A stretch of 64,000 nucleotides of DNA. Origin: Fibrobacterota bacterium. Its GTDB lineage: Bacteria; Fibrobacterota; Fibrobacteria; UBA11236. This document shows, in pieces, positions 9,476 through 61,031 of the stretch. A model generated the notes under the pieces. It was given only the letters and a program-made list of their open reading frames with translations. It was not told the DNA's origin and did no database searches. Made by a program: the position numbers and the translations under genes. Position 1 is the first letter of the stretch. Every line of letters begins with the position of its first letter. The stretch is taken from the NCBI GenBank assembly GCA_947482115.1, contig CANKII010000002.1, positions 310,001-374,000 on the forward strand. Direction: 5' to 3'.

Positions 9476-12169
9476 TCATCCACCCAGAATGCGTGACAAG
9501 ATACTTGCCGCTTCGGCGAGCACCAATTCTTCCTTGTGAACAGCCTTGGAGCCTGCTTGGGCGCGATCCGGGCGGCCTCCACCCTTGGCTTCCGCAATCG
9601 GAGCCAGTTCCTTAATCAAGTCGCCGGCCTTCACCTTATTATGAACAGACTTGCCGGCCACGGCATAGATGGAAAGCGAATCTCCGCTTACCGCTGTGAA
9701 AACTCCGACACCATCCTGAAGCTGCACAGACAGCGCATCGATGAAAGCTTGTTGGGAATCCTTGTCCAAACCGGCATCGAGTTTGGAAACGACGTACGAA
9801 ATTCCGCCTGCGGTTTTCGATTTCTCACGGACAATGACTTGCGCCTGTTGCGAAGCCTGTTGCTGACGCAGCTCAGACAATTCTTTTTCCGCCGCGCGCA
9901 GACGCTGAGCCAGTTCGGCAACTTTTTGCGGTTCATCTCCCGGTTTTGCCTTGAGCGCGGAACCGATTTCGGAGAGCAGTTCAAACCGTTTGTTCACCAA
10001 TTCCAATGCGCCTTCGCCGGTCATTGCTTCAATGCGACGTACGCCCGCAGCGATGGAACTTTCAGAAGTGACTTTGAAGAATCCGATTTGACCCGTGGCG
10101 ATGGCATGCGTGCCGCCGCACAATTCCAAACTGAAATCTCCCATGCGGATCACGCGGACGCGGTCGCCGTATTTCTCGCCGAACAATGCCATGGCTCCCA
10201 TGTTCTTCGCTTCATCGATGCCATGTACCGAATGGGAGACAGAAAGGTTTTCCTGAATCTTGCGATTCACAATCAACTCAACAGTGCGCACTTCATCCGG
10301 TGTCACGGATTGGAAATGCGTGAAGTCAAAGCGCAGACCTTCCGGCCCCACGCGCGAACCCTGTTGCTGCACATGATCGCCGAGCACTTGTCGCAAGGCC
10401 GAATGCAGAAGATGCGTCGCGCTGTGATTGCGCATGGCCGCCGCGCGGGCTTCGCCATCCACGGTTCCTACCACTTTTTGCAGGCTCTCACGAGTCAGCA
10501 GGCCATGAACCAAAGCGCATTTATGCAGCACCATGTCGAATATTTTGACCGTGTCGAGGACACGCAAAGTCACGCCCTGTCCTTGAATCAAACCGATGTC
10601 ACCGACTTGTCCGCCGGACTCGGCATAGAAAGGTGTTTTTGCGGAAACGAGAAGAACGGTGTCGCCTTCTTCGCGGTAGCGCAGGATGGGCATGCCGGAT
10701 TCCAGTGTTTCATAACCCACGAATTCCGTATCCAACCCTTCGGAAAGAATGGTCCAGCCTTCGTCGCCCGCGATGGCGGCTTCGAATTTTGCGGCACCGC
10801 GCGCGCGTTCGCGCTGTTCTTCCATATGCTTTTGGTATCCGGCCTCGTCAATGCTCAAGCCCTGCTCTTCGGCGAGCAGGCGTGTGAGATCGGAAGGGAA
10901 TCCGTACGTATCATATAGAGTGAAGACTTCGACGCCGTCGATGGCGGTGAGATTCTTTTCCTTGGTTTGCTTGGCGACTTTGGCAAAGCGATCGAGTCCC
11001 AGATCCAAAGTCTTGCCGAAGCGTTCCTCTTCAGAACGAATCACTTGAGCGATATAATCCTGACGGGCGCGAAGTTCGGGATAAGCACCGCCCATGTGCT
11101 GAGCAAGAACCGGCACGATGCGATAGAGGAACGGTTCCTTGCGTCCGAGATTGCGGGCAAAGCGGCTCGCGCGGCGCAAAATACGGCGTAATACATAGCC
11201 GCGGCCTTCGTTGCCAGGTGTAGCGCCGTCCGCGATGGCGAAGCTTAGCGCGCGAATGTGATCCGCGATGACGCGATGCGATGTGCCTTCGACGCCGTTG
11301 GAATATTCCGTGCCGGACAATTCCGCGATGCCGTTGATGATGGGGCCGAACACGTCGGTCTCATAATTGTTGCCGGAGCCTTGAATGATGCTGCACACGC
11401 GTTCGAAGCCCATGCCGGTGTCGACATTCTTGTGCTTCAGCGGTTTGAGTTCGCCGCCTGCGATGCGTTCGAATTGCATGAACACGAGATTCCAGATCTC
11501 GATGTAGCGGGCGTTCTGTCCGTTGACTCCGAGAATAGGATCGGCGAAGGTGGCATCGCGCGTGGCTTCATCGCCCATATCGAAATGAATTTCGGAGCAG
11601 GGACCGCAGGGACCGATTTCACCCATCTCCCAGAAATTTTCCTTGTCGCCGAAGCGTAGGACACGGGCCGGATCGATATCCGTTTCCGATTTCCAGATTT
11701 CAATCGCCTCGTCGTCTGTTTTATAAACGGTGACGAAGAGTCTGTCCTTGGGCAGCTTCCACGCTTCGGTAAGCAGTTCCCAGGCCCAGCTGATGGCTTC
11801 CTTCTTGTAATAGTCGCCGAAGGACCAGTTGCCGAGCATTTCAAACAGAGTGTGATGGTAGGTGTCGCGACCGACTTCGTCCAAATCGTTGTGCTTGCCG
11901 GAAACGCGGATGCATTTTTGCGAGTTGGCGACGCGCTTCCAGCCTTCGCGGTTTTCACCCAGCAAGGCGGACTTGAATTGGTTCATACCTGCGTTGGTGA
12001 ACAGCAAAGTCGGATCGTCATGCGGGACGACCGGGGCCGAGGGAACGTAAACGTGTCCCTTGGACTTGAAAAAATCGATGAAGCCCTGGCGGATTTGATC
12101 CCCGGTAAGCGTGGGAATGCCGAAGCCCTTAAGTTCTGTAGAAGCGGAGGAAGAAGTAGGTTTTTGCAT
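9476..12169 (-). CDS. alaS: Alanyl-tRNA synthetase
   Basis: IRQGFIDFFKSKGH, FTNAGMNQFK, NHSATHLLHSALRQVLG, LELCGGTHA; 897 aa. Confidence 0.98.
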   Translation of the reverse strand: MQKPTSSSASTELKGFGIPTLTGDQIRQGFIDFFKSKGHVYVPSAPVVPHDDPTLLFTNAGMNQFKSALLGENREGWKRVANSQKCIRVSGKHNDLDEVGRDTYHHTLFEMLGNWSFGDYYKKEAISWAWELLTEAWKLPKDRLFVTVYKTDDEAIEIWKSETDIDPARVLRFGDKENFWEMGEIGPCGPCSEIHFDMGDEATRDATFADPILGVNGQNARYIEIWNLVFMQFERIAGGELKPLKHKNVDTGMGFERVCSIIQGSGNNYETDVFGPIINGIAELSGTEYSNGVEGTSHRVIADHIRALSFAIADGATPGNEGRGYVLRRILRRASRFARNLGRKEPFLYRIVPVLAQHMGGAYPELRARQDYIAQVIRSEEERFGKTLDLGLDRFAKVAKQTKEKNLTAIDGVEVFTLYDTYGFPSDLTRLLAEEQGLSIDEAGYQKHMEEQRERARGAAKFEAAIAGDEGWTILSEGLDTEFVGYETLESGMPILRYREEGDTVLLVSAKTPFYAESGGQVGDIGLIQGQGVTLRVLDTVKIFDMVLHKCALVHGLLTRESLQKVVGTVDGEARAAAMRNHSATHLLHSALRQVLGDHVQQQGSRVGPEGLRFDFTHFQSVTPDEVRTVELIVNRKIQENLSVSHSVHGIDEAKNMGAMALFGEKYGDRVRVIRMGDFSLELCGGTHAIATGQIGFFKVTSESSIAAGVRRIEAMTGEGALELVNKRFELLSEIGSALKAKPGDEPQKVAELAQRLRAAEKELSELRQQQASQQAQVIVREKSKTAGGISYVVSKLDAGLDKDSQQAFIDALSVQLQDGVGVFTAVSGDSLSIYAVAGKSVHNKVKAGDLIKELAPIAEAKGGGRPDRAQAGSKAVHKEELVLAEAASILSRILGG

Positions 12170-12220
12170 GATAGGACGCGAGAATTTAACTCTTTAACTT
12201 CTTTAACGTAAAAGCCGGAA

Positions 12221-14128
12221 ATGAAGAAGGTCATTCAAAACGACAATTTTATCGGCCTTGCGCTGGCATTGGCCTCTTTTCTCGTTTATCTGAGCACGAT
12301 GGCGCCTTCGCTATGCTTCATCGATAGCGGGGAATTGGCCACCGACATTTCCACACTCGGGATCGCGCATCCGACGGGTTATCCCTTGTTCACGCTCGTG
12401 GGCTGGGTGTTCATTCACTTGATTCCATTCGGCCGGGTCATTTGGAAACTCAATCTGTTCGCGGCAGTATGTTGCTCCGTTTCCGTGTTTGGATTCTATC
12501 GATTATTTCTGTTTCTACTTGCAGAAAAAACCCTAATCGGATTTGGCATTCGGCAGGAATCATCCGGTCGCAAGAAAGGGAAAGCCGTCGAGTCAAAACC
12601 TCTTGGCTCAACGGAAAGAATTGCGGCAGGGATTGCGGCATTGATTCTGGCGTTTTCCGAAACCTTCTGGTCACAAGCCGTTTCCATCGAAGTGTATCCA
12701 TTGCATCTGGTTTTTCTTTCGCTGGTGATCCTGTTGTTTGTCCGTGCGATTCTGGAGTACTCCGAAAATCATGAAAAGAAAAAGTCCGGGACTTGGATTG
12801 TTTTCGCTTTGGCTTTGGGTTTGGCTTTTAGCAATCACATGACCACCATTCTATTAGCTCCGGCATTTCTTTATCTCTACTTCGCGACACACGGCTTCTC
12901 TCGCCCATCATGGTTCAAGATTTCGAAGGCCGCAATTCCATTTATCGCAGGGTTGTCCGTTTATCTCTATCTGCCATTGCGCGCAGCGCAGCATCCGTTG
13001 ATGAACTGGGGAAATCCTGTCACCTTCGAAAGGTTTATGTGGCACATTTCCGGCAAACAATTCCGGTCATGGATGTTTTCGTCATGGGATTCGGCAGGCA
13101 AACAATTCGGATATTTTCTCTCCAGTTATCCCTCCGAGTTCGGATATGCTCCGTTGCTTTTTGCCTTACTCGGATTGACGGTTCTTTTCCGCCGCTCCAA
13201 AAAGCTGTTGATCTTTTCCCTGCTGCTTTTTTTCGGCTGCTTGTTCTATTCCATCAACTACGACATTCACGACATTGACTCGTATTTCCTGCTGGCCTAT
13301 GTGGCGACGGCAATTTGGATCGCCTATGGAGTTCAATCGTTTCTTGGTTACATGCGCAATGGGGCAAAGAAATGGATTGGGTTGGCAGCCTGTGTCGCTC
13401 TAGTCCTTTTGCCGCTGGGCATTCATTATCGCAGCATCGATGAAAGCAAGGATTATGCAGTGGAGGATTACACTAAAAATCTGTTGGGATCTTTGGATTC
13501 CAATGCCGTGATTCTATCCTATCAATGGGACGCATTCGTGTCCGCAGCCTATTACTTGCAGCGCGTGGAAGGCTTTCGTTCCGATGTGGTAGTGATTGAC
13601 AAGGAACTTTGCCGTCGCTCCTGGTATCCTGTTCAACTGGAACATCAATTTCCTTGGCTGATTCAGAATTCGCGTCCTGAAGTGAATGCTTTCCTGCAGG
13701 CGGTTGCGCCGTTTGAACACGATGAGCCCTTCAATCCAAACGTGATTGAAGCAAGTTTTGAGGGGATGATTCAAAGCTTTCTCATCAAAAGTTCTGAAAC
13801 CCGTCCTGTTTATGCGACTTCGGATATTGGTCCGGAGTTCACTCCCGGATTTCGACGGCTCCCTTCCGGTTTGTCTTTCCGGCTTTCACGCGATACGGCT
13901 TTGATTCCCATTGCTCCTAGGGAATTTTTCATTCGTCCTTTTACCAAAACCAACTCGTATGCCGAAGGTGTGAAGGCAATGTACGCCGAGGGGTACGCAA
14001 ATCAGGGGATTTATCAGTCGATGCTGGGGAACAAGGCCGAAGCGATTGTACAGTTGAAAAAAGCTTTGGAAGTGAAGCCGGATTTCCAGCCTGCGCAAGC
14101 TTGGTTACAACGGCTCAGCGGTTCCTGA
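12221..14128 (+). CDS. DUF2723 family membrane protein with C-terminal TPR-like repeat
   Basis: SGELATDISTLGIAHPTGYPLFTLVGWVF, multiple TM segments; C-term YQSMLGNKAEAIVQLKKALEVKPDFQPA. Confidence 0.85.
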   Translation: MKKVIQNDNFIGLALALASFLVYLSTMAPSLCFIDSGELATDISTLGIAHPTGYPLFTLVGWVFIHLIPFGRVIWKLNLFAAVCCSVSVFGFYRLFLFLLAEKTLIGFGIRQESSGRKKGKAVESKPLGSTERIAAGIAALILAFSETFWSQAVSIEVYPLHLVFLSLVILLFVRAILEYSENHEKKKSGTWIVFALALGLAFSNHMTTILLAPAFLYLYFATHGFSRPSWFKISKAAIPFIAGLSVYLYLPLRAAQHPLMNWGNPVTFERFMWHISGKQFRSWMFSSWDSAGKQFGYFLSSYPSEFGYAPLLFALLGLTVLFRRSKKLLIFSLLLFFGCLFYSINYDIHDIDSYFLLAYVATAIWIAYGVQSFLGYMRNGAKKWIGLAACVALVLLPLGIHYRSIDESKDYAVEDYTKNLLGSLDSNAVILSYQWDAFVSAAYYLQRVEGFRSDVVVIDKELCRRSWYPVQLEHQFPWLIQNSRPEVNAFLQAVAPFEHDEPFNPNVIEASFEGMIQSFLIKSSETRPVYATSDIGPEFTPGFRRLPSGLSFRLSRDTALIPIAPREFFIRPFTKTNSYAEGVKAMYAEGYANQGIYQSMLGNKAEAIVQLKKALEVKPDFQPAQAWLQRLSGS

Positions 14129-26786: not shown

Positions 26787-28340
26787 TTACCGCCCCTGCG
26801 TTTTATTCTTTACCTGCTCTACCGGCTTCACGATATAAGTCCCAGCCGGAAGCGGCGAGCCGTTCTGCGGCATGTTCTTCCCATCTAGCGAATAAACCTG
26901 TCCTTCGATCTGTTGCGAGCCAGACATCACAGGAACCAGCCGGGCTTTGGCGGAATTGTTAGGCGAGAACGGGGCGATGTTCTTCGAAATTCCAGTGACA
27001 CCTCCGGCTAACATCCCACGATAAATAACATGTGCCAGCGTATCGTGTCCCAATTCTCTCGGGTGGACACCATCCGGAACATAGGACGGCGTCACGTTAT
27101 AAGTGTACGGTTGCCCCATCAACATCGGAGTATAAACATCAATCGTGGGGAACCCTCTTTCCGTGGCCACCTGTTGCACGGCGGGGATTACCGAGTCGCG
27201 AATGGTGAAACCGCTGATGCCGTTTCCGGCGGTGCCATTGTCAAAACCCCATCCCAAGGTGTTGGGCGATGTCACACTGGAATTGTTGAGCGCATACCAT
27301 GCCGGCATGGGCTTGATTAAAAAGAATTGTGGCTTGGGTGAGATGTTGTTGGAGAATGTGTCGATCATGGCACGGGAGTCCGTCATGAATCTCGCGGTGT
27401 TCCATTGCGTCGAGCGCGAGTCATTGGTACCCAGCATGATGGTGATATAGTTGGGCTTAAAATTGAAGACGTCCTTGAATTGCGTCGTGGTCCAATAAGG
27501 GGAACGACCCGCCTTTTGCATGTATGCCCCGGAAAGCCCTTCATTGCGCACATAAAAATCCCTGCCCAGCAGCATGTTCAAGCGGACCGCATAGGCGGTT
27601 TGCAGCGGAGCCGTCAAAGTGGAGCCGGCAGTGATGCTGTTGCCCACGCAGGCAATGCGTGTCACTTGCGACATGAAGGAACGGTAAAGGATGGCGGAGA
27701 GCGAATCCGAACCCCTTGGGGTGAAATGAACGCCGTCTACATAGTAGGTCGTCGGACTTGAAGTTGCGATGGCACGCATGCGCGTATTGGCATCGAGGAC
27801 TTTTAATCCTTTCGCTGCGGCAACCTGTTGGATCTTGGGAATGACGCCGTAGGTCATAATGGAGTCATTGATACCGAAGGTATTGGAAAAAATGGGTGGT
27901 GGTAACATGAGCCAGATACGGGGTGCGGGGGAGATGTTATTGGTAAGAGTGTCTACCAGCGCTGTCAGATCCGCGACGAATTCAGAATTGAAAGCCCAGT
28001 TTGCGGGCTTGGTGTCGTTCGTACCAAGTTCAATTGAAATGATATCGGGTTTGAATGCGAAGACGGAAGCGAGAATGTTTGTTCCCGATACGGTTCGGGT
28101 CCAGTAAGGCACATCGCCTTTTTTGAGCAAAGTGGAACTCGACACGCCGAAGTTTCGGATGGTGTCCTGATATCCCACCAAGCCGGATAAACGCGTCGTT
28201 CCGTTCACATAGGTCAGGTTAGCTTGGGGATATCCGGCGGTAAGACTGTTGCCAAGGCAGGCCCATTTAATGCGCTGCGGGACTTGTGCCTGCACTGCGA
28301 AAGCCGCGATAAGGCCGATGGAAAGGATTCGTTGGAGCAT
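26787..28340 (-). CDS. Secreted protein with two SGNH/GDSL-type hydrolase domains and C-terminal tag
   Basis: Signal peptide; two sets of GNS(L/I)TAG, GTND, DGVH motifs; C-term GQVYSLDGKNMPQNGSPLPAGTYIVKP. Confidence 0.88.
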   Translation of the reverse strand: MLQRILSIGLIAAFAVQAQVPQRIKWACLGNSLTAGYPQANLTYVNGTTRLSGLVGYQDTIRNFGVSSSTLLKKGDVPYWTRTVSGTNILASVFAFKPDIISIELGTNDTKPANWAFNSEFVADLTALVDTLTNNISPAPRIWLMLPPPIFSNTFGINDSIMTYGVIPKIQQVAAAKGLKVLDANTRMRAIATSSPTTYYVDGVHFTPRGSDSLSAILYRSFMSQVTRIACVGNSITAGSTLTAPLQTAYAVRLNMLLGRDFYVRNEGLSGAYMQKAGRSPYWTTTQFKDVFNFKPNYITIMLGTNDSRSTQWNTARFMTDSRAMIDTFSNNISPKPQFFLIKPMPAWYALNNSSVTSPNTLGWGFDNGTAGNGISGFTIRDSVIPAVQQVATERGFPTIDVYTPMLMGQPYTYNVTPSYVPDGVHPRELGHDTLAHVIYRGMLAGGVTGISKNIAPFSPNNSAKARLVPVMSGSQQIEGQVYSLDGKNMPQNGSPLPAGTYIVKPVEQVKNKTQGR

Positions 28341-28343
28341 GGA

Positions 28344-29879
28344 TTATTTCCCCGTGTTTGAATTATTCGGTATAGTCTTGTTGTCTGGTTTCATGATATA
28401 AGTTCCGGCGGGAAGCGGCGAGCCATTCTGTGGCATGGCTTTTCCGTCCAGGGAATAGATCTGTTCCTCGCCCCGCACTGAGGGAGATAGAACAGGAACT
28501 AAACGGGCTCTGGCATTGCCGGAGTTTTGCGCGCTCTGCTTCTGCGGGGTGATGCCGACCACCGTGGACAGGGTACGAAAGAAGATGTGCGCGAGTGTAT
28601 CCTGTCCGGCTTTGTTGGGATGAACTCCGTCACCGCTCATGATGCTTGAGGGTTGGGTGGGGGAGTTGAATGCGGAGTTGTAGAGATCGATGGTTTGCAA
28701 TCCTTTGGCCGAAGCGACCTGCAGAATGGCGGGAATCACGGAGTCGCGGATAATGTCCCCGCTGATGCCATTGGTCGTATCGCTCGTGGGATTTCCAAAA
28801 GCCCAATGTCCGTTTATACGCCAAGCTCCCACAGGACGGACCAGTAAAATCTGGGGCTTGGGGTTGATGTTGTTGCTGAAGGTGTCGATCATGGTCTTGT
28901 AGTCATTGATGTACCGCGCTGTGTTCCAGGATTTTGGACGCGAATCGTTGGTGCCCAGCATGATGGTGATGATGTGGGGTTTCAGATTGAAGACATTGGT
29001 GAGTTTCCCGCCACTCTGATTCCAATAGGACATGATGGCCGGGGTGATATTGCCGGGCTTTTGCATATAACATCCGGATCGCCCGTCGTTTTCCGCGTAG
29101 AAATTTCGTCCCAACAGCATGTTCAATTTGGTCGTGTAGGCGTCCACGGCAACAGCTCCGGAGACGCCGCTGTTGATGTATTCCGTAATGCTGTTGCCGA
29201 CCACTGCAATGCGTGTGACTTTGGAGATGTAGGCGCGGAAGATGTAAGCTGCGATCGAGTCGTATCCGGGCGTGGTGGGGTGAATGCCATCGGTTCCGAA
29301 CAGACTTGATCGACCAAGGAAGGGCGTATGTGTATCGATGGTATCGATCCCCTTTTCAATGGCCACCTGTCGGAGGCGCGGGATGACTCCGTAGCGAATG
29401 ACGGATTCGCGGATATCTCCGGGCTGTGGATTGGTTTCGCTGTTGAAAGTCGGGGTGGGGTAGATCAGGAAAATTCTCGGATGAGAAGGCATGGCGGCCA
29501 AAGTATCGATCATGTCCCGCGTGTCCCGCAGGAAATTGGCGCTGTCCTTCCAGTTGATGGGCTTGGAATCGTTTGTGCCCAGATCAATGGACACGATGTC
29601 GGGTTGGAACGCGAAGACTTGCGCAAAACGGCCATACTTCCAGTAGGTGGAATCCCCGCTGCGAAGCATGGTTCTCCAACCCACTCCCGCGTTCAGCACT
29701 GTATCCATGATTAGACGGGTTCCCAACCTCACGGGGTAGGCATTGGTCGCCCCCGTCGTCCCTTGGGTGATGCTATTGCCGACACAAGCCCACTTAATCT
29801 TTGTGGATACTTGGGCTTGCAGGGCATATGCGGTGGCAAATACGCCGAATGCAAAAGTGAACGTACGCTGATTCATCAA
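28344..29879 (-). CDS. Paralogous secreted protein with two SGNH/GDSL-type hydrolase domains
   Basis: GNSITQGTT/GNSITEY, GTNDSKP/GTNDSRP, DGIHP/DGVHP; C-term EQIYSLDGKAMPQNGSPLPAGTYIMKP. Confidence 0.88.
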   Translation of the reverse strand: MMNQRTFTFAFGVFATAYALQAQVSTKIKWACVGNSITQGTTGATNAYPVRLGTRLIMDTVLNAGVGWRTMLRSGDSTYWKYGRFAQVFAFQPDIVSIDLGTNDSKPINWKDSANFLRDTRDMIDTLAAMPSHPRIFLIYPTPTFNSETNPQPGDIRESVIRYGVIPRLRQVAIEKGIDTIDTHTPFLGRSSLFGTDGIHPTTPGYDSIAAYIFRAYISKVTRIAVVGNSITEYINSGVSGAVAVDAYTTKLNMLLGRNFYAENDGRSGCYMQKPGNITPAIMSYWNQSGGKLTNVFNLKPHIITIMLGTNDSRPKSWNTARYINDYKTMIDTFSNNINPKPQILLVRPVGAWRINGHWAFGNPTSDTTNGISGDIIRDSVIPAILQVASAKGLQTIDLYNSAFNSPTQPSSIMSGDGVHPNKAGQDTLAHIFFRTLSTVVGITPQKQSAQNSGNARARLVPVLSPSVRGEEQIYSLDGKAMPQNGSPLPAGTYIMKPDNKTIPNNSNTGK

Positions 29880-29977: not shown

Positions 29978-30054
29978 CGGGACTTAGCTCAGTCTGGTAG
30001 AGCATCTGCTTTGGGAGCAGAGGGTCGCATGTTCGAATCGTGTAGTCCCGACCA
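29978..30054 (+). tRNA. tRNA-Pro(TGG), CCA encoded
   Basis: Acceptor CGGGACT/AGTCCCG, D-arm TAGCTCAGTCTGGTAGAGCA, anticodon loop TTTGGGA (TGG), T-arm GTTCGAATC, 3' ACCA. Confidence 0.97.
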
Positions 30055-53947: not shown

Positions 53948-55462
53948 ATGGATATTCCGAATAAATATGATGTTTGCATTCTCGGTTGCGGTCCCGGCGG
54001 ATTCGCAGCCGCAATGCGCGCTTTTGATTTTGGAAAGAACGTCTGCATCATTGAAGGCGGGAACATCGGCGGGGCCGGCATTGTCCACGGTGCGCTGACG
54101 AGTAAAACACTGTGGGAACTGGCGAAGGATTATGCGCTGGCATCCACCACGGATCGCGGTTATCGCGTGGCCGGGTTAATGGTGGATTATCAGGCGGTGC
54201 GCGACACGGTCATTCAAGCCGCGAAGGAAAAACAATACCAAATCCTCTCGCAAATCGAAACCTTCTCACCGCCACGCTGGAAGGGACCGGGTTCGATCAC
54301 TTTGAAGCGGGGATTCGCCCGCTTCCAGGATTTGAACACGGTGAGCGTATCCATTCACGGCGGGACTGAAGAACTGGTGAAGGCGGACAACTTCGTCATT
54401 TCGACGGGATCCAAGCCGCGTGATTTTCCCGGCATCATCATTGATAATGAGCGCATCATCAACTCCGACGGCATTCTTTCCTTCCGTCAATTTCCCAAGC
54501 GGCTGCTCATTCTGGGCGCGGGCATCATCGGCTGTGAATACGCCAGCATCTTTTCCAACTTCGGGCAGACCAAGGTGCATTTGCTGGATCGCCAATCGCG
54601 CATCATCCCGTTTGAGGACGAGGATATCAGCCGTTTCGTCAGCCATAATCTGGAACAAAAAGGTGTGACCATTCACCACAACGCCATTCTCCGCGCCATT
54701 CACAAACGACCGGAGTTTCTCGAGGTCGTGGTGGATTACGAGGACGGCCGCAGCCAGGTGCTGGAAGTGGATGCCGCACTGGTTTCTGTGGGTCGTGTTC
54801 CCAACGTGGGACTTCTGGAACTGGATCGGATCGGTCTGGTTCCCAATTCCCGCGGTGCCATTGAAACGGATGCCGGTTGTCGAGCGCGATTCAACATTTA
54901 CGCGGTGGGCGATGTGACCCAGCATACGGCGTTGTTTAACGTGGCGGAGATGGAAGGCCGTTATGTGGCCAAGTCCATGTTCGGGAAGAACAATTATCCG
55001 CTTCGCTATCACAACATGTCCACCATCATGTTTTTCAATCCCGAGGTCGCGGTGGTGGGACTCAATGAACAGCAATGTCAGGAGCAGAAAATTCCCTATC
55101 GCGTGGGATTCTATTCCAACGCGCTGGTGAACCGCGCCATCGCCATGCGCCGTACGGACGGCTTCGTAAAAATTCTGATCTCCCAGGACGGACAGAACCG
55201 CATCCTTGGAATGCGCGCGGCGGGTCCGCAGGCCTCCAGCACCATCATGGTCATCGCGCACTTGATGGATCAGGAAAAAGGACTGGAGGAAATCATGAAA
55301 TCCATCCACCCGCATCCGTCGATCACGGAAGGCATTCAGGAATGTCTGCGCATGCTGCTGGGCAAGTCGATCTACAAGCCGATGGTGTTTCCGGATTACA
55401 TGAGCATTAAGTCATGGCATCCTGAGATGGGTTATGCCAGCATGGCTGCCATGCCGGGGTGA
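53948..55462 (+). CDS. Pyridine nucleotide-disulfide oxidoreductase-fold flavoprotein lacking the active-site Cys pair
   Basis: YDVCILGCGPGGFAAAMRAFDFGKNVCIIEGG; GGAGIVHGALTSKTL replaces GGTCLNxGCIPSK; GVHP-like HPHPSITEGI. Confidence 0.88.
   Translation: MDIPNKYDVCILGCGPGGFAAAMRAFDFGKNVCIIEGGNIGGAGIVHGALTSKTLWELAKDYALASTTDRGYRVAGLMVDYQAVRDTVIQAAKEKQYQILSQIETFSPPRWKGPGSITLKRGFARFQDLNTVSVSIHGGTEELVKADNFVISTGSKPRDFPGIIIDNERIINSDGILSFRQFPKRLLILGAGIIGCEYASIFSNFGQTKVHLLDRQSRIIPFEDEDISRFVSHNLEQKGVTIHHNAILRAIHKRPEFLEVVVDYEDGRSQVLEVDAALVSVGRVPNVGLLELDRIGLVPNSRGAIETDAGCRARFNIYAVGDVTQHTALFNVAEMEGRYVAKSMFGKNNYPLRYHNMSTIMFFNPEVAVVGLNEQQCQEQKIPYRVGFYSNALVNRAIAMRRTDGFVKILISQDGQNRILGMRAAGPQASSTIMVIAHLMDQEKGLEEIMKSIHPHPSITEGIQECLRMLLGKSIYKPMVFPDYMSIKSWHPEMGYASMAAMPG
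55400..55462 (+). repeat. Tail repeat copy 1 (intact 3' end of oxidoreductase)
   Basis: ATGAGCATTAAGTCATGGCATCCTGAGATGGGTTATGCCAGCATGGCTGCCATGCCGGGGTGA, matching 56123-56185. Confidence 0.95.
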
Positions 55463-55463
55463 G

Positions 55464-56066
55464 TTAAAAAGAAGATCGCTGTGGAGCCATGGGAGGGCCC
55501 ACACAACAAGCAAGAACTACAGGGCCGATTACAAGAGGCAGAACGATGAATGTAATTACCAACCCTGTTGATAAAGAATTGAGCTCTTCATAGCTGATAT
55601 GATCGATAGACTTCCATTGCAAAGAAAAATTTCGTACGGAGGAAGCGCTATCATTTTGTTCGAACAAAGCATCGGCAACATTGCTATTCTCGATCAGAAA
55701 CAAATCCATTTGTTTTGAGCCAGTGGGCATTAAGCTGCTTTCTGTTCCTTTTTTCCACGATGTCCCAAGAATTTTTTCGAGGTTTGTGTCGTTAACTAAT
55801 TGGAAAGGATTATGGAGTTGCCCTTCCAATCCGGTTTCTGTCCATCTAGGAGATTTCAGTATTCCCATTTTCCCCCCGCTCTTCAGAACAAAGGCCCAGT
55901 CTTCAAGAATCTGAATGGTGTCGCCCACTTGGGTCCGTATTTTTCTTGCCTTCAATTGTTCCAGTGGGATCATCCCCTTGCTGTAGCATCCGGTGAGGTG
56001 CAGGCAAAATGTGGCAAGCAGGAACCAGCTGATGAAAATGCGGGATGATCGAATCTGCTTGTTCAT
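55464..56066 (-). CDS. Hypothetical lipoprotein
   Basis: Lipobox LHLTGC after signal peptide; C-terminal hydrophobic segment. Confidence 0.75.
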   Translation of the reverse strand: MNKQIRSSRIFISWFLLATFCLHLTGCYSKGMIPLEQLKARKIRTQVGDTIQILEDWAFVLKSGGKMGILKSPRWTETGLEGQLHNPFQLVNDTNLEKILGTSWKKGTESSLMPTGSKQMDLFLIENSNVADALFEQNDSASSVRNFSLQWKSIDHISYEELNSLSTGLVITFIVLPLVIGPVVLACCVGPPMAPQRSSF

Positions 56067-56122
56067 GTTCCTTTGACGAATGGTTTTTTGTTCTGGTAAC
56101 CAGTCAATTCAAGATTTCGCCC

Positions 56123-56185
56123 ATGTACATCCGCTCGTGGCATCCCGAGATGGGTTATGCCAGCATGGCCGCCATGCCGGGGTGA
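56123..56185 (+). pseudogene. Tail repeat copy 2: isolated 3'-end remnant of an oxidoreductase paralog
   Basis: Encodes MYIRSWHPEMGYASMAAMPG* versus MSIKSWHPEMGYASMAAMPG* at the intact gene; last 48 nt differ only at two synonymous third positions. Confidence 0.92.
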
Positions 56186-56187
56186 AC

Positions 56188-56547
56188 TTAATGGGAGTAG
56201 ATTAACTTGTAGGCGAAGCCCTCATACCCATAACCATAAATGGTGACCCCTTTCGATTGGGAATTCTGAAACCATTTATGCGAAGGAACAAACCAGGCTT
56301 CTGTCTCGTCTTGGCGAATGTAGATCTGATCTGTTGCGGTATCCGAAGGTAATGCGGTATTCCAAATGACGCATTCGACCACCCAAGGACCTGAATAATA
56401 TGGTCCAAGGCCGGTAAAGGGGTCCTTGGAACTAAGGTTTCCCTGTTGGGTGAATCCGCCACTTTCATGAGGCCCTCCGTTGAGGCATCCGAATACGAAT
56501 AATGTCGTAAATAGAATGGCTCCGATCAGGCAAAATTTCTCCTTCAT
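56188..56547 (-). CDS. Hypothetical lipoprotein
   Basis: MKEKFCLIGAILFTTLFVFGCLNGG lipobox. Confidence 0.7.
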   Translation of the reverse strand: MKEKFCLIGAILFTTLFVFGCLNGGPHESGGFTQQGNLSSKDPFTGLGPYYSGPWVVECVIWNTALPSDTATDQIYIRQDETEAWFVPSHKWFQNSQSKGVTIYGYGYEGFAYKLIYSH

Positions 56548-56565: not shown

Positions 56566-57153
56566 TTAAAACCTCGCCCATGCCATCATGCCGGGTTGCG
56601 GTGTTCCGTTTTCATCAATATTCCATGAAGGTGTCACCCCAAATTTTTGAAGGTTCCGTTCACCTGGATTGTTATATCGGTGGACGGCAAAATGGGTGTC
56701 AATCAAGCTGTAAAAAAATCCTCCGAAGAAGAGAAAAGATCCGGAAAGTCCGAGCGCATCGGAACCATTGAATTTGTGATGGCCACCGCTGGAAATAAAA
56801 TGGCTGCCGTTGGCGACCATTAAGCTGAGCCCCAATCCTCGCGCTGCAATTCCCAGAAGCCCCTCCTTGTAAGAGCTGGCATAGATTTGCCCCGTTGAAG
56901 GTCCCACTACCACTCCGGACAAAGCCAAGGCGATTCCAATTGTTTGTATGGGTCTGGCGTCTGAATTCTTAGATATCGCCACTCCGATTAAGCCGGGTAA
57001 ATAGGTTGAGCCGATGGCCAAACCATAAGCGATGGCTTCGTTCTTTGCCTTGTCAGGTAAAACCGGCGAAGGAATCGAGTCGGGTGAATAATATGAAGCG
57101 GCAAAAGTCGCAGAGCTGAGGAAGAGGAGGAAGAGTGATGTTCTGAGATTCAT
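56566..57153 (-). CDS. Hypothetical envelope protein ending QPGMMAWARF
   Basis: Signal peptide; C-term GTPQPGMMAWARF shared with the 58656-59549 product. Confidence 0.7.
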   Translation of the reverse strand: MNLRTSLFLLFLSSATFAASYYSPDSIPSPVLPDKAKNEAIAYGLAIGSTYLPGLIGVAISKNSDARPIQTIGIALALSGVVVGPSTGQIYASSYKEGLLGIAARGLGLSLMVANGSHFISSGGHHKFNGSDALGLSGSFLFFGGFFYSLIDTHFAVHRYNNPGERNLQKFGVTPSWNIDENGTPQPGMMAWARF

Positions 57154-57192: not shown

Positions 57193-57765
57193 TCATTTTA
57201 CGCCGACCACCCGCCGATACCGTGTTCCAAACACCGTGTCCCAGAAGCGGCTTGAGATCCCAAAGTTGTATTCGGGAAATTGGTGGTGGACCAGATGATG
57301 GACTTTTACCTTCCGAATCCACGAATTCGTGGTTTTCCAGTGGTGATGACTGTGGTGGACAACGCCGTACCAGAGGGTACCCGCCTGCCAGCCTGCAAAG
57401 AGGGATGAGAGTATCGGGATGTGAACGACGGCGGTAAACATCCACCAGAGTCCGATTGCAATGGACGCGGTCAGAAACCAAGGGGTAGCGATCATGCTCA
57501 GAGGTTTCACGTGATGCACATTGTGAAGATCGCGGACGAAGCTGCTGAAGTAATGGTAAACCCACCGGTGGAGGATGTATTCCGACAGGGTGAAAATCAC
57601 AAAACCCGCAATTCTGCCGAACACTACATGGCTAATGGGGGAGCGCCAAACGGTTGTTTCCCAGACCAGAAAAAAAATGACAAGGGAAATATCGGCGACG
57701 TAACTCAATTTGTAGTTCAATGCACTGCCGAAAAATTTCGCGGTGATCCATTTCCACAGGCTCAT
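57193..57765 (-). CDS. Fatty acid hydroxylase/sterol desaturase family membrane protein
   Basis: Histidine boxes HRWVYHYF, HNVHH, HHSHHHWK, HHLVHHQF. Confidence 0.85.
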   Translation of the reverse strand: MSLWKWITAKFFGSALNYKLSYVADISLVIFFLVWETTVWRSPISHVVFGRIAGFVIFTLSEYILHRWVYHYFSSFVRDLHNVHHVKPLSMIATPWFLTASIAIGLWWMFTAVVHIPILSSLFAGWQAGTLWYGVVHHSHHHWKTTNSWIRKVKVHHLVHHQFPEYNFGISSRFWDTVFGTRYRRVVGVK

Positions 57766-58619
57766 TAGTGTTCTTTCGGAATCAGTTTGAGTTTGCGGTC
57801 CTTGTCAATCACAACGATTCGTGTTCCTCCATCCTTGGACATTTCAATCCGCAGAATGTTTGCAATGGCAAGATCGTGCAGAACACCGCTTTTCTCATAC
57901 ACGATTCCGGAACCACGTATTTCCCGGATGGCACAGGATTTTTTTTCGGTACCGTCCTTTAAGAGAATCCGGACTGTTCCGAGATTTTCAAGTGCGACAA
58001 ATTCATCGGGGGCAGGGGAGTTGATTTTTGGGATCGACAGGGTTTCCGCGGTATGTACGGTTGAATCTTTGTCTTGTGGTTTTCCGTCCGCTTCGATCTT
58101 TTTCAATTCTGGAGCTTCGGTGTGAATCGTCTGCGATCCCCCGTTAGGGAATTGATAGACCACATGGGCGCCCCCGATACCTCCCGTGATCAGACCGATG
58201 GCACCGCCATACAATGCCCCGAAAAAAAGGCCGGGAATGAAATTGCCGGAACCCGCACCTATCAGAGCTGCGATTCCACCCACCCATAACGCGCCGAATT
58301 GCATGCCTCGCATGGCGCCGAGACCGTGATCCGTTATGGTGATGTTTGAAATGCGATCCGCCGGAATTTTGGAATGAGCCCGAAGAGTCTTTAAATCAAC
58401 CGTGTCACGTCTCACTCTCGTGATGTTTCCCGAATACACGGCTCCGTCCCGCATGAGGACTTCGGATTCCGTGGACTTCATGTCGTTTATGGCGGATTCA
58501 TAAGCGACCGGATCGCGATCATCCAGTTGCCGGGTCACTGTTCCCGCGCAGTTTATCAGAAAGAGGGGAAGGAGATTGATTGCTGCGAGAGCCCTCCAGG
58601 ATGGCATGTTGTTGTTCAT
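57765..58619 (-). CDS. Hypothetical lipoprotein with glycine-rich membrane segment
   Basis: LFLINCAG lipobox; GALWVGGIAALIGAGSGNFIPGLFFGALYGGAIGLITGGIGG; TAATG overlap with the next gene. Confidence 0.75.
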   Translation of the reverse strand: MNNNMPSWRALAAINLLPLFLINCAGTVTRQLDDRDPVAYESAINDMKSTESEVLMRDGAVYSGNITRVRRDTVDLKTLRAHSKIPADRISNITITDHGLGAMRGMQFGALWVGGIAALIGAGSGNFIPGLFFGALYGGAIGLITGGIGGAHVVYQFPNGGSQTIHTEAPELKKIEADGKPQDKDSTVHTAETLSIPKINSPAPDEFVALENLGTVRILLKDGTEKKSCAIREIRGSGIVYEKSGVLHDLAIANILRIEMSKDGGTRIVVIDKDRKLKLIPKEH

Positions 58620-58655: not shown

Positions 58656-59549
58656 TTAAAATCTCGCCCATGCCATCACACCGGGTTGTAGTTTGCCGGT
58701 TGGGGTGAAGGATAGGGCGGGAAAGGCGCCGAAGTGACGCGCCGAATTTTTTTTCGCTTTATCTTCCGGAAGAAAGGCATTATGAAACCCGCCATAGATG
58801 GCGTAGCCGATGCCACCTAACGCAATAATCGTCCCCGTAGGTTCCAATGGATGTTTTTCTTCCCCATATGCATTTCTGCCGGTTTGGATTCGGGCTACAG
58901 CCACACCGATTGCAGTTATCCCCATTCCCACAAGTATCGGGTGCCAGAGTCTTTGCTTTGGTTTTTGGGGATCGGAGTTTACGTGGGCTTCAGTTTTTTC
59001 TGTTGCCGTTGCAGCACTGACATCCGTGGGTGTGGTCGTTAAAGGGACATCCTTGCCAATCGAATCGTGGGACGCCCCAAAGTTCTGTGCGCCCGAGTCT
59101 TTCGAGAGCGTATCCGGTATCGTCGAGTTATAGATGCCACCTACCGTTGCATATAGAACCCCTCCGATCAAAAACGTGATTCCGGAGATACCCAGGATGT
59201 TGCCCTTGGTTCTGCTAGCATCCCTCTCTTGCTGGGTTTGGTTTGGATTCTCCCATGCACTATTCATACCCTCTCCTGCGGCTCCCATCATAAGAACAAG
59301 TCCAACGAGCGATATGGCCACCCCAATCGCCACAGGGTGGTTCAATTTTGTCTTTGGTTTGTGGGAAAGGGAATCGGTTGGATTTTCATGTTCCGCCTCG
59401 GTGTATTCCACAGTGCGTCCATCGTGTAAATATTTTATCGTCGTGCCATTGGGAGACGTGCGGCTGGAATCAACGATGAAGTTTTCGCTTTGCGCCCATA
59501 GGAGCGACGAAGCGAGGGAGAGGCTAAGGAGAAAACTGGAGACTTTCAT
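58656..59549 (-). CDS. Hypothetical envelope protein ending QPGVMAWARF
   Basis: Signal peptide; repeated HPVAIGVAISLVGL/HPILVGMGITAIGV segments; C-term GKLQPGVMAWARF. Confidence 0.72.
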   Translation of the reverse strand: MKVSSFLLSLSLASSLLWAQSENFIVDSSRTSPNGTTIKYLHDGRTVEYTEAEHENPTDSLSHKPKTKLNHPVAIGVAISLVGLVLMMGAAGEGMNSAWENPNQTQQERDASRTKGNILGISGITFLIGGVLYATVGGIYNSTIPDTLSKDSGAQNFGASHDSIGKDVPLTTTPTDVSAATATEKTEAHVNSDPQKPKQRLWHPILVGMGITAIGVAVARIQTGRNAYGEEKHPLEPTGTIIALGGIGYAIYGGFHNAFLPEDKAKKNSARHFGAFPALSFTPTGKLQPGVMAWARF

Positions 59550-59777
59550 GGTCGTTTCCCAATCTTAATGTTCGTGTTGGACGCGTGCCTTCGGAAAAGG
59601 GTAACCATTCAAACCGGATAAGCCTCTGACAACCTGACAGCAAAAAGTGGCCTGTTCGCAGCCGGAAAGGTGAATCACAGGAATATTAACCGATATATCC
59701 CGGTATTATATTTGCTATTCCATTTTGGTCAGGGGGTCTTCTGGTTCCCGACTTTTTTCAGACGATTTCGGAGCATT

Positions 59778-61031
59778 ATGTCTACCTACAAGCACATTCA
59801 AGTCCCTTCACATGGCGAACACATTACCCTCGGCAGCGATGGCGCCATACAGGTTCCCGACGAACCGATCCTGCCTTTCATCGAAGGCGACGGCACCGGT
59901 CCCGACATTTGGAAGGCCGCGAGTTACGTCCTCGATGAAACCGTCCGCAAGGTCTATGGAGGCAAACGCAAAATTTCGTGGGTGGAAATCTACGCAGGTG
60001 AAAAATCGCTCAAGGTTTACGGTGAGAACCAATGGCTTCCCGAAGAAACACTCGAAGCCATCAAGGAATTCAAAATCGCCATCAAGGGACCGTTGACCAC
60101 TCCGGTGGGTGGCGGCATCCGTTCCATCAACGTGGCTTTGCGTCAGGAACTTGATCTCTATGCCTGCGTGCGGCCTGTGCGCTGGTTCCAGGGCGTACCT
60201 GCGCCAGTGAAGGAACCTCACAAACTCGATGTGGTGATCTTCCGTGAAAATACCGAGGACGTTTACAGCGGCATCGAGTTCGATGCGAACACTTCCGAGG
60301 CCAATGAATTGATCGCCTTTCTGAAGCAAAAACTTCCCAAGAAATTTGTGCGCGAAGGCAGCGCGCTGGGCGTCAAGCCCGTCTCCGCATTTGGCTCCAA
60401 GCGGCTGGTGCGCCGTGCCATCCAATTTGCCATCGACAAAAACCTCCCGTCCGTGACATTGGTTCACAAGGGCAACATCATGAAGTTCACCGAGGGTGGA
60501 TTCATGAAATGGGGTTATGAGGCCGCGAAGGAATTCGGGGACAAGGTTATTACCGAGGCAGAGGTCTACGAAAAGCACGGTGGCAAAACGCCTGCGGGCA
60601 AGGTGCTGATTCAGGATCGCATCGCCGATGCCATGTTCCAGCAATTGCTTCTGCGTCCCGACGAGTATTCCGTGCTTGCAACCTTGAATTTGAACGGAGA
60701 TTATCTCTCCGATGCCTGCGCTGCGCAGGTGGGCGGTCTGGGCCTCGCTCCGGGAGCGAATATTGGCGATCGCGCAGCAGTGTTTGAAGCTACGCACGGA
60801 ACGGCTCCCAAATACGCGGGATTGGATAAAATCAATCCGGGATCGGTTTTGCTTTCCGGCGTCATGATGCTGCAACATCTCGGTTGGGATGAAGCAGCCG
60901 ATGCCATTTTCCGCGCGTTGAGCCAGACCATTTCGCATCGCAAGGTCACTTACGATCTCGCGCGCCAGATGGAAGGCTCCACGGAAGTCAAATGTTCCGA
61001 GTTCGGCCGCTTGATTGCGGAGGCCATTTAA
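59778..61031 (+). CDS. icd: NADP-dependent isocitrate dehydrogenase
   Basis: [59 protein letters not shown]; start at MSTYKHIQ (59778). Confidence 0.95.

Follow-up and report, generated by a model that had tools for sequence, protein, structure and literature searches.

An orphan copy of an lpd 3' end in a Fibrobacteria genome as a probable scar of illegitimate recombination

The 3' end of lpd, a dihydrolipoamide-dehydrogenase-like gene, is present twice in the window (the whole 64,000-nucleotide stretch of DNA analysed), once within the intact gene (55399–55462, plus strand) and once as an orphan tail (56122–56185, plus strand) that lies 723 bp downstream of the first copy, about 0.7 kb past the intact gene, and shows an 86% match to it across 64 nt. 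A second lpd 3' end did become joined to this locus, and on balance we favor the view that an unequal, homology-facilitated illegitimate join between two haplotypes of the interval separating lpd from the isocitrate dehydrogenase gene, icd, left the orphan tail as its scar. The locus is most likely a readable recombination scar of a known kind, and not a new class of mobile element.

The repeated unit comprises the last 21 codons of lpd together with the preceding C, which is the first base of the sequence CATG. A first-pass annotation had located the repeat correctly, as 21 codons recurring without a gene body, although the shared stretch begins one base earlier than it proposed, at the C of CATG. 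The two copies differ at nine of the 63 coding nucleotides, with six of the nine in codons 2–4, and are 94% identical over 51 nt; alignment of the tails bears out the earlier statement that the last 48 nt differ at only two positions, both of them third codon positions. The encoded peptides are as previously given, MSIKSWHPEMGYASMAAMPG and MYIRSWHPEMGYASMAAMPG, each followed by a stop codon. Each tail copy is also adjoined, as described, by the stop codon of a convergent lipoprotein gene, with the TTA at 55464–55466 being 1 nt past the intact tail and the TTA at 56188–56190 being 2 nt past the orphan tail. Searching the entire genome (2.72 Mb) identified the tail in these two places only (E values of 2e-27 and 2e-16), and the next-best matches are 15-nt chance matches (E = 0.5). 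A dispersed repeat family was rejected on this count of two, and a tRNA-type target was also rejected, as the window has a single tRNA, at 29978.

The intact lpd gene (53948–55462, plus strand) codes for a 504-residue pyridine nucleotide-disulphide oxidoreductase with Pfam domains PF07992 and PF02852; its best NCBIfam match is to TIGR01350 (lipoamide_DH) at 338 bits, under the 409-bit cut-off for that family. It is followed by lipoA (55464–56066, minus strand; 200 residues, lipobox LTGC), and the orphan tail by lipoB (56188–56547, minus strand; 119 residues), an orphan gene with no recognisable relative; neither lipoprotein matches a Pfam or NCBIfam family above cut-off. Beyond lipoB are a gene of an uncharacterised family, referred to here as the C-family (56566–57153, minus strand), a fatty acid hydroxylase family gene (57193–57765, minus strand; PF04116), a putative lipoprotein gene of a D-family (57765–58619, minus strand), a second C-family gene (58656–59549, minus strand), and icd (59670–61031, plus strand), coding for an NADP isocitrate dehydrogenase of discordant type (TIGR00183). 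The C-family has a conserved C-terminal motif and no Pfam match above cut-off. Its two members in the window have near-identical C-termini, PGMMAWARF (56566–56611) and PGVMAWARF (58656–58701), and the remaining protein is barely alike.

The source genome is a member of a small genus (g1) in a Fibrobacteria family, and its named relatives are mostly metagenome assemblies. We read the lpd 3' end in six of these (G001–G006) and all six have a single tail, such that the two-tail structure is seen in this genome only, and none carries a full-length tandem lpd paralogue; the two observations that the first-pass annotation had named as fatal to an insertion (two tails in all relatives, or a tandem paralogue in relatives) were thus not encountered. 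In G001, G003, and the three genomes of genus g2 (G004, G005 and G006) icd comes straight after lpd, without any intervening lipoprotein gene, and the interval is therefore insertion-variable. The nearest relative, G002 (OMJM01000022.1), has an lpd product with 85–86% amino acid identity, and its gene order is lpd, a convergent lipoA orthologue (41% identical and in the same place beside lpd), a C-family gene (C1), D-family genes, a gene with a weak TolB_N match, a second C-family gene (C2), and icd. G002 has one lpd tail and no lipoB. The C-family gene beside lipoB is 33–35% identical to both C1 and C2, and the D-family gene is 42% identical to a gene in the G002 interval; the fatty acid hydroxylase gene is not in the G002 interval, and its homologues lie elsewhere in relatives. 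Judged by these gene orders, the lpd-icd stretch is demonstrably a variable interval, missing in most relatives and differing in content from G002, and lipoA appears to be an older neighbour of lpd, with lipoB a gene known here only. The anticipated relative with a single tail joined to lipoB and lacking lipoA was not found among these genomes; G002 has the reverse arrangement, with its tail beside the lipoA orthologue.

Duplication and decay are also apparent in the G002 interval, where one D-family gene (L035:10746–11582) is split by a stop or frameshift, with one TGA inside the match, and is followed by a further D copy at 12022–12408. The C-family likewise occurs in duplicated surroundings in a g2 genome (G008:C326:13438–16661; L072, L078), in which two C-family genes are about 2.7 kb apart with repeated DNA between them.

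A second gene remnant, missed in the first-pass annotation, marks the orphan tail at its left edge. The minus strand at 56126–56109 reads T-W-A-K-S-stop, at the position where G002 has the end of C1, which terminates in AWAKF and a stop codon directly upstream of lipoA. This relic of a C-family 3' end (W-A-K-S-stop, 56123–56109) is only 15 nt long, and 12 of the 15 nt match the G002 C1 end. The C-terminal signature of these genes is AWARF in both members in this genome, and AWAKF and AWVRF in G002; a motif of W-A, then K or R, any residue and a stop codon is present in 0.025% (about 2.5e-4) of dinucleotide shuffles of the 60-nt stretch. The orphan tail begins immediately beyond the relic and the two abut exactly, so that the order in the window is lpd, tail, lipoA and C-gene end, joined to tail', lipoB and C gene. 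This is the junction expected if a C1 3' end is joined to another lpd 3' end. The C-family genes of this genome both terminate in GCATGGGCGAG, and CATG is common to the start of the tail and these gene ends (GCATGGGCG). The microhomology at the junction (CATG, 56122–56125) is thus 2–4 nt, with CA being certain, and comes to all 4 nt if GCA, the codon in both C-family genes here, was the one lost, or to 2 nt if it was GCT as in G002. In its sequence the junction looks like a tandem-duplication or unequal-crossover join with short microhomology.

The two lipoprotein genes have no detectable relationship to each other. Nucleotide and protein alignments of lipoA and lipoB are no better than those of shuffles in any of six frames, with 463 of 1000 shuffles giving an equally good protein alignment, and since there is no detectable homology, even though the flanking tails differ at just two of their last 48 nt, the two genes most simply arrived already different. 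No convincing match to lipoB was found in 168 genomes of the phylum (weak matches only, E values of 0.003 or worse). Searches of phages, plasmids and IMG/VR yielded no lipoB homologues, and viral contigs yielded no match to the lpd tail; a phage, plasmid or viral origin for either was rejected.

The two ends of the interval have different affinities. In the lpd tree this genome groups with G002 (support 80/97), and in the icd tree with G004 and G006 of genus g2 (support 100/100), with icd identities of 82–84% to these two and about 59–68% to its own genus-mates and G005. From its tree and identities, icd is a xenologous gene in a conserved place, and part of the interval has therefore been exchanged, either before or in the same event as the join. 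The G004 and G006 icd genes differ in the same way from that of G005, a member of their own genus. Along lpd itself, there is no clear step in identity to G002, in what is a single-relative comparison. The G002 tail, to which the orphan tail aligns at 76% over 68 nt, polarises eight of the nine differences between the two tails, and the orphan tail has the ancestral base at seven of these eight, although this 7:1 ratio is not significant (binomial p = 0.07) and codon 4 contributes three of the sites. It is no more than suggestive that, of the two copies, the orphan tail looks more ancestral. Such a polarity agrees with a derived lpd-lipoA end having been joined into an lpd'-lipoB genome, or the reverse, and argues mildly against the orphan tail being an old, freely decayed relic.

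Because the tails are 94% alike and the lipoproteins look unrelated, two gene-order versions of the interval are most simply the source of the two halves. Haplotype 1 would have had lpd, lipoA and C1, as in G002, and haplotype 2 would have had lpd', lipoB and a C-family gene. This second haplotype is a hypothetical parent, and an lpd'-lipoB arrangement was not found among the relatives and 168 genomes of the phylum; its existence, the side that acted as donor, and the recombination mechanism are those that we infer. DNA of one haplotype would have reached a cell that had the other, through transformation or some other route of transfer. Genes of the ComEC and DprA families are present in this genome; these are widespread in bacteria and are no proof of competence. 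A RecA-type homologous exchange would have anchored one side, whether within lpd or, rightward, in the C-family, D-family or icd genes or the downstream region, and the other side would have been joined by the 2–4 bp of microhomology (CA or CATG), linking the C1 3' end to the point where the lpd tail begins. The product would be a complete lpd with lipoA and the last codons of C1, followed by the lpd tail of the second allele, lipoB, and its C gene.

The same final map could be reached if about 720 bp had been duplicated locally in tandem at microhomology and one of the two lipoprotein copies had then been replaced or had diverged to an extreme degree, and the breakpoints, at which a C-gene end is joined to an lpd tail, have exactly the geometry that such an event predicts. 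There are also repeated C and D genes in the G002 interval. A plain tandem duplication was rejected because only the 64-nt tail and a few codons of a C-gene end are repeated and the lipoproteins are not, and an extra replacement step is needed to account for two lipoproteins that align no better than shuffles beside tails that differ at two of 48 nt. In addition, most of the polarisable tail differences are on the coding copy rather than the relic, and we consider this explanation unlikely. The first-pass annotation had proposed instead that a cassette of a tail and lipoA inserted at the lpd 3' end in the manner of integrase-bearing elements, so that the gene received a new tail and its original one was displaced together with lipoB. 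One part of this survives, in that a second lpd end was indeed joined in, and the cassette is compatible with the final map, with CATG at the start of both tails, and with the displaced tail being more ancestral-looking than the one now in the gene. However, lipoA has the look of an older lpd neighbour, being beside lpd in G002 where there is no second tail, and a self-contained unit leaves the C-gene relic, which points to illegitimate joining, unexplained. The annotation saw no integrase or transposase here, and for integrases this holds; no gene of the interval is an integrase by Pfam and NCBIfam profiles, and the two Phage_integrase-family genes of the genome are about 152 and 220 kb away. 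The failure to match lipoB in phages, plasmids or viral contigs, or the tail in viral contigs, also weighs against a cassette, which we regard as improbable.

An assembly artefact that merged two strains occurring together into a single metagenome contig would mix just such a pair of haplotypes, and the related records are metagenome assemblies, as this genome may be too. Nonetheless, an overlap of at most 4 nt at the join would not suffice for a k-mer or overlap assembler unless reads spanned it, and the contig is 505 kb with no run of N in the stretch read; a chimera is improbable. Finally, the orphan tail could have been kept for a function such as a transcription terminator for lipoB, since both tails contain an inverted repeat (GCATGG-NNN-CCATGC) beside a lipoprotein stop codon. 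Against this, z-scores for folding are unremarkable (-0.03 to -1.8), neither tail receives a terminator call, there is no Rfam match, and the stem is missing from the G002 tail; a retained function is thus very improbable.

An illegitimate join of two haplotypes has parallels in several described systems. Events of homology-facilitated illegitimate recombination (HFIR) have one homologous end and usually 3–10 bp of microhomology at the other, and change about 1 kb (PMC3240628); the locus described here shares the change of about 1 kb and an available homologous flank and would resemble them in its short microhomology of 2–4 nt at one junction, although the homologous-exchange end and one parent are hypothetical and the one product is known from one locus. 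In the T6SS immunity arrays of Vibrio cholerae, a new allele pushes the older gene end and its partner downstream, and HFIR has been proposed (Kirchberger 2017, PMC5361080). Here too a gene 3' end and a neighbouring gene lie downstream of a second allele, but the V. cholerae arrays are of effector and immunity genes with known strain intermediates, whereas this single known locus has a housekeeping-type flavoenzyme with convergent lipoprotein neighbours; the genes here are not an effector and immunity pair, lpd being a Pyr_redox enzyme and lipoA and lipoB matching no Pfam or NCBIfam family above cut-off. Prophage e14 in the E. coli icd gene leaves a displaced end, icdC (PMC4444293), and the likeness is that the intact gene has one 3' end and another version survives downstream as an orphan. 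However, e14 is a 16-kb, integrase-bearing element with precise excision, and the unit here is 0.7 kb with no adjacent integrase and no relative with a single tail joined to lipoB. Strings of orphaned 3' ends beside small partner genes are also found where Rhs and CdiA C-termini are displaced (PMC3150448; Jackson 2009 cited in PMC5361080), although lpd does not belong to the polymorphic toxins and the two copies of its tail differ little.

If the haplotype join is correct, the locus preserves in readable form an illegitimate recombination event between strains in a Fibrobacteria lineage that has been little studied and is represented here mostly by metagenome assemblies. It would also show that arrays of displaced tails, familiar above all from toxin and prophage loci, can arise next to a gene of housekeeping type. 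From the direct repeat one would expect strains in which lipoA is deleted and lpd is intact. The locus also cautions that orphan 3' gene ends alone are no sign of a mobile element. A more speculative proposal, to which we give little credence, is that small convergent lipoprotein genes are exchanged time and again at the lpd 3' end, each accompanied by a few dozen bases of lpd tail that serve as a portable homology block. Strains could then swap lipoA for lipoB, or stack them, without the enzyme gene ever being broken, and the 64-bp direct repeats would allow clean loop-out loss of lipoA.

Elsewhere in the window, two neighbouring open reading frames (26787–29879, minus strand; 517 and 511 codons) share two blocks at 73% nucleotide identity and are probably tandem genes.
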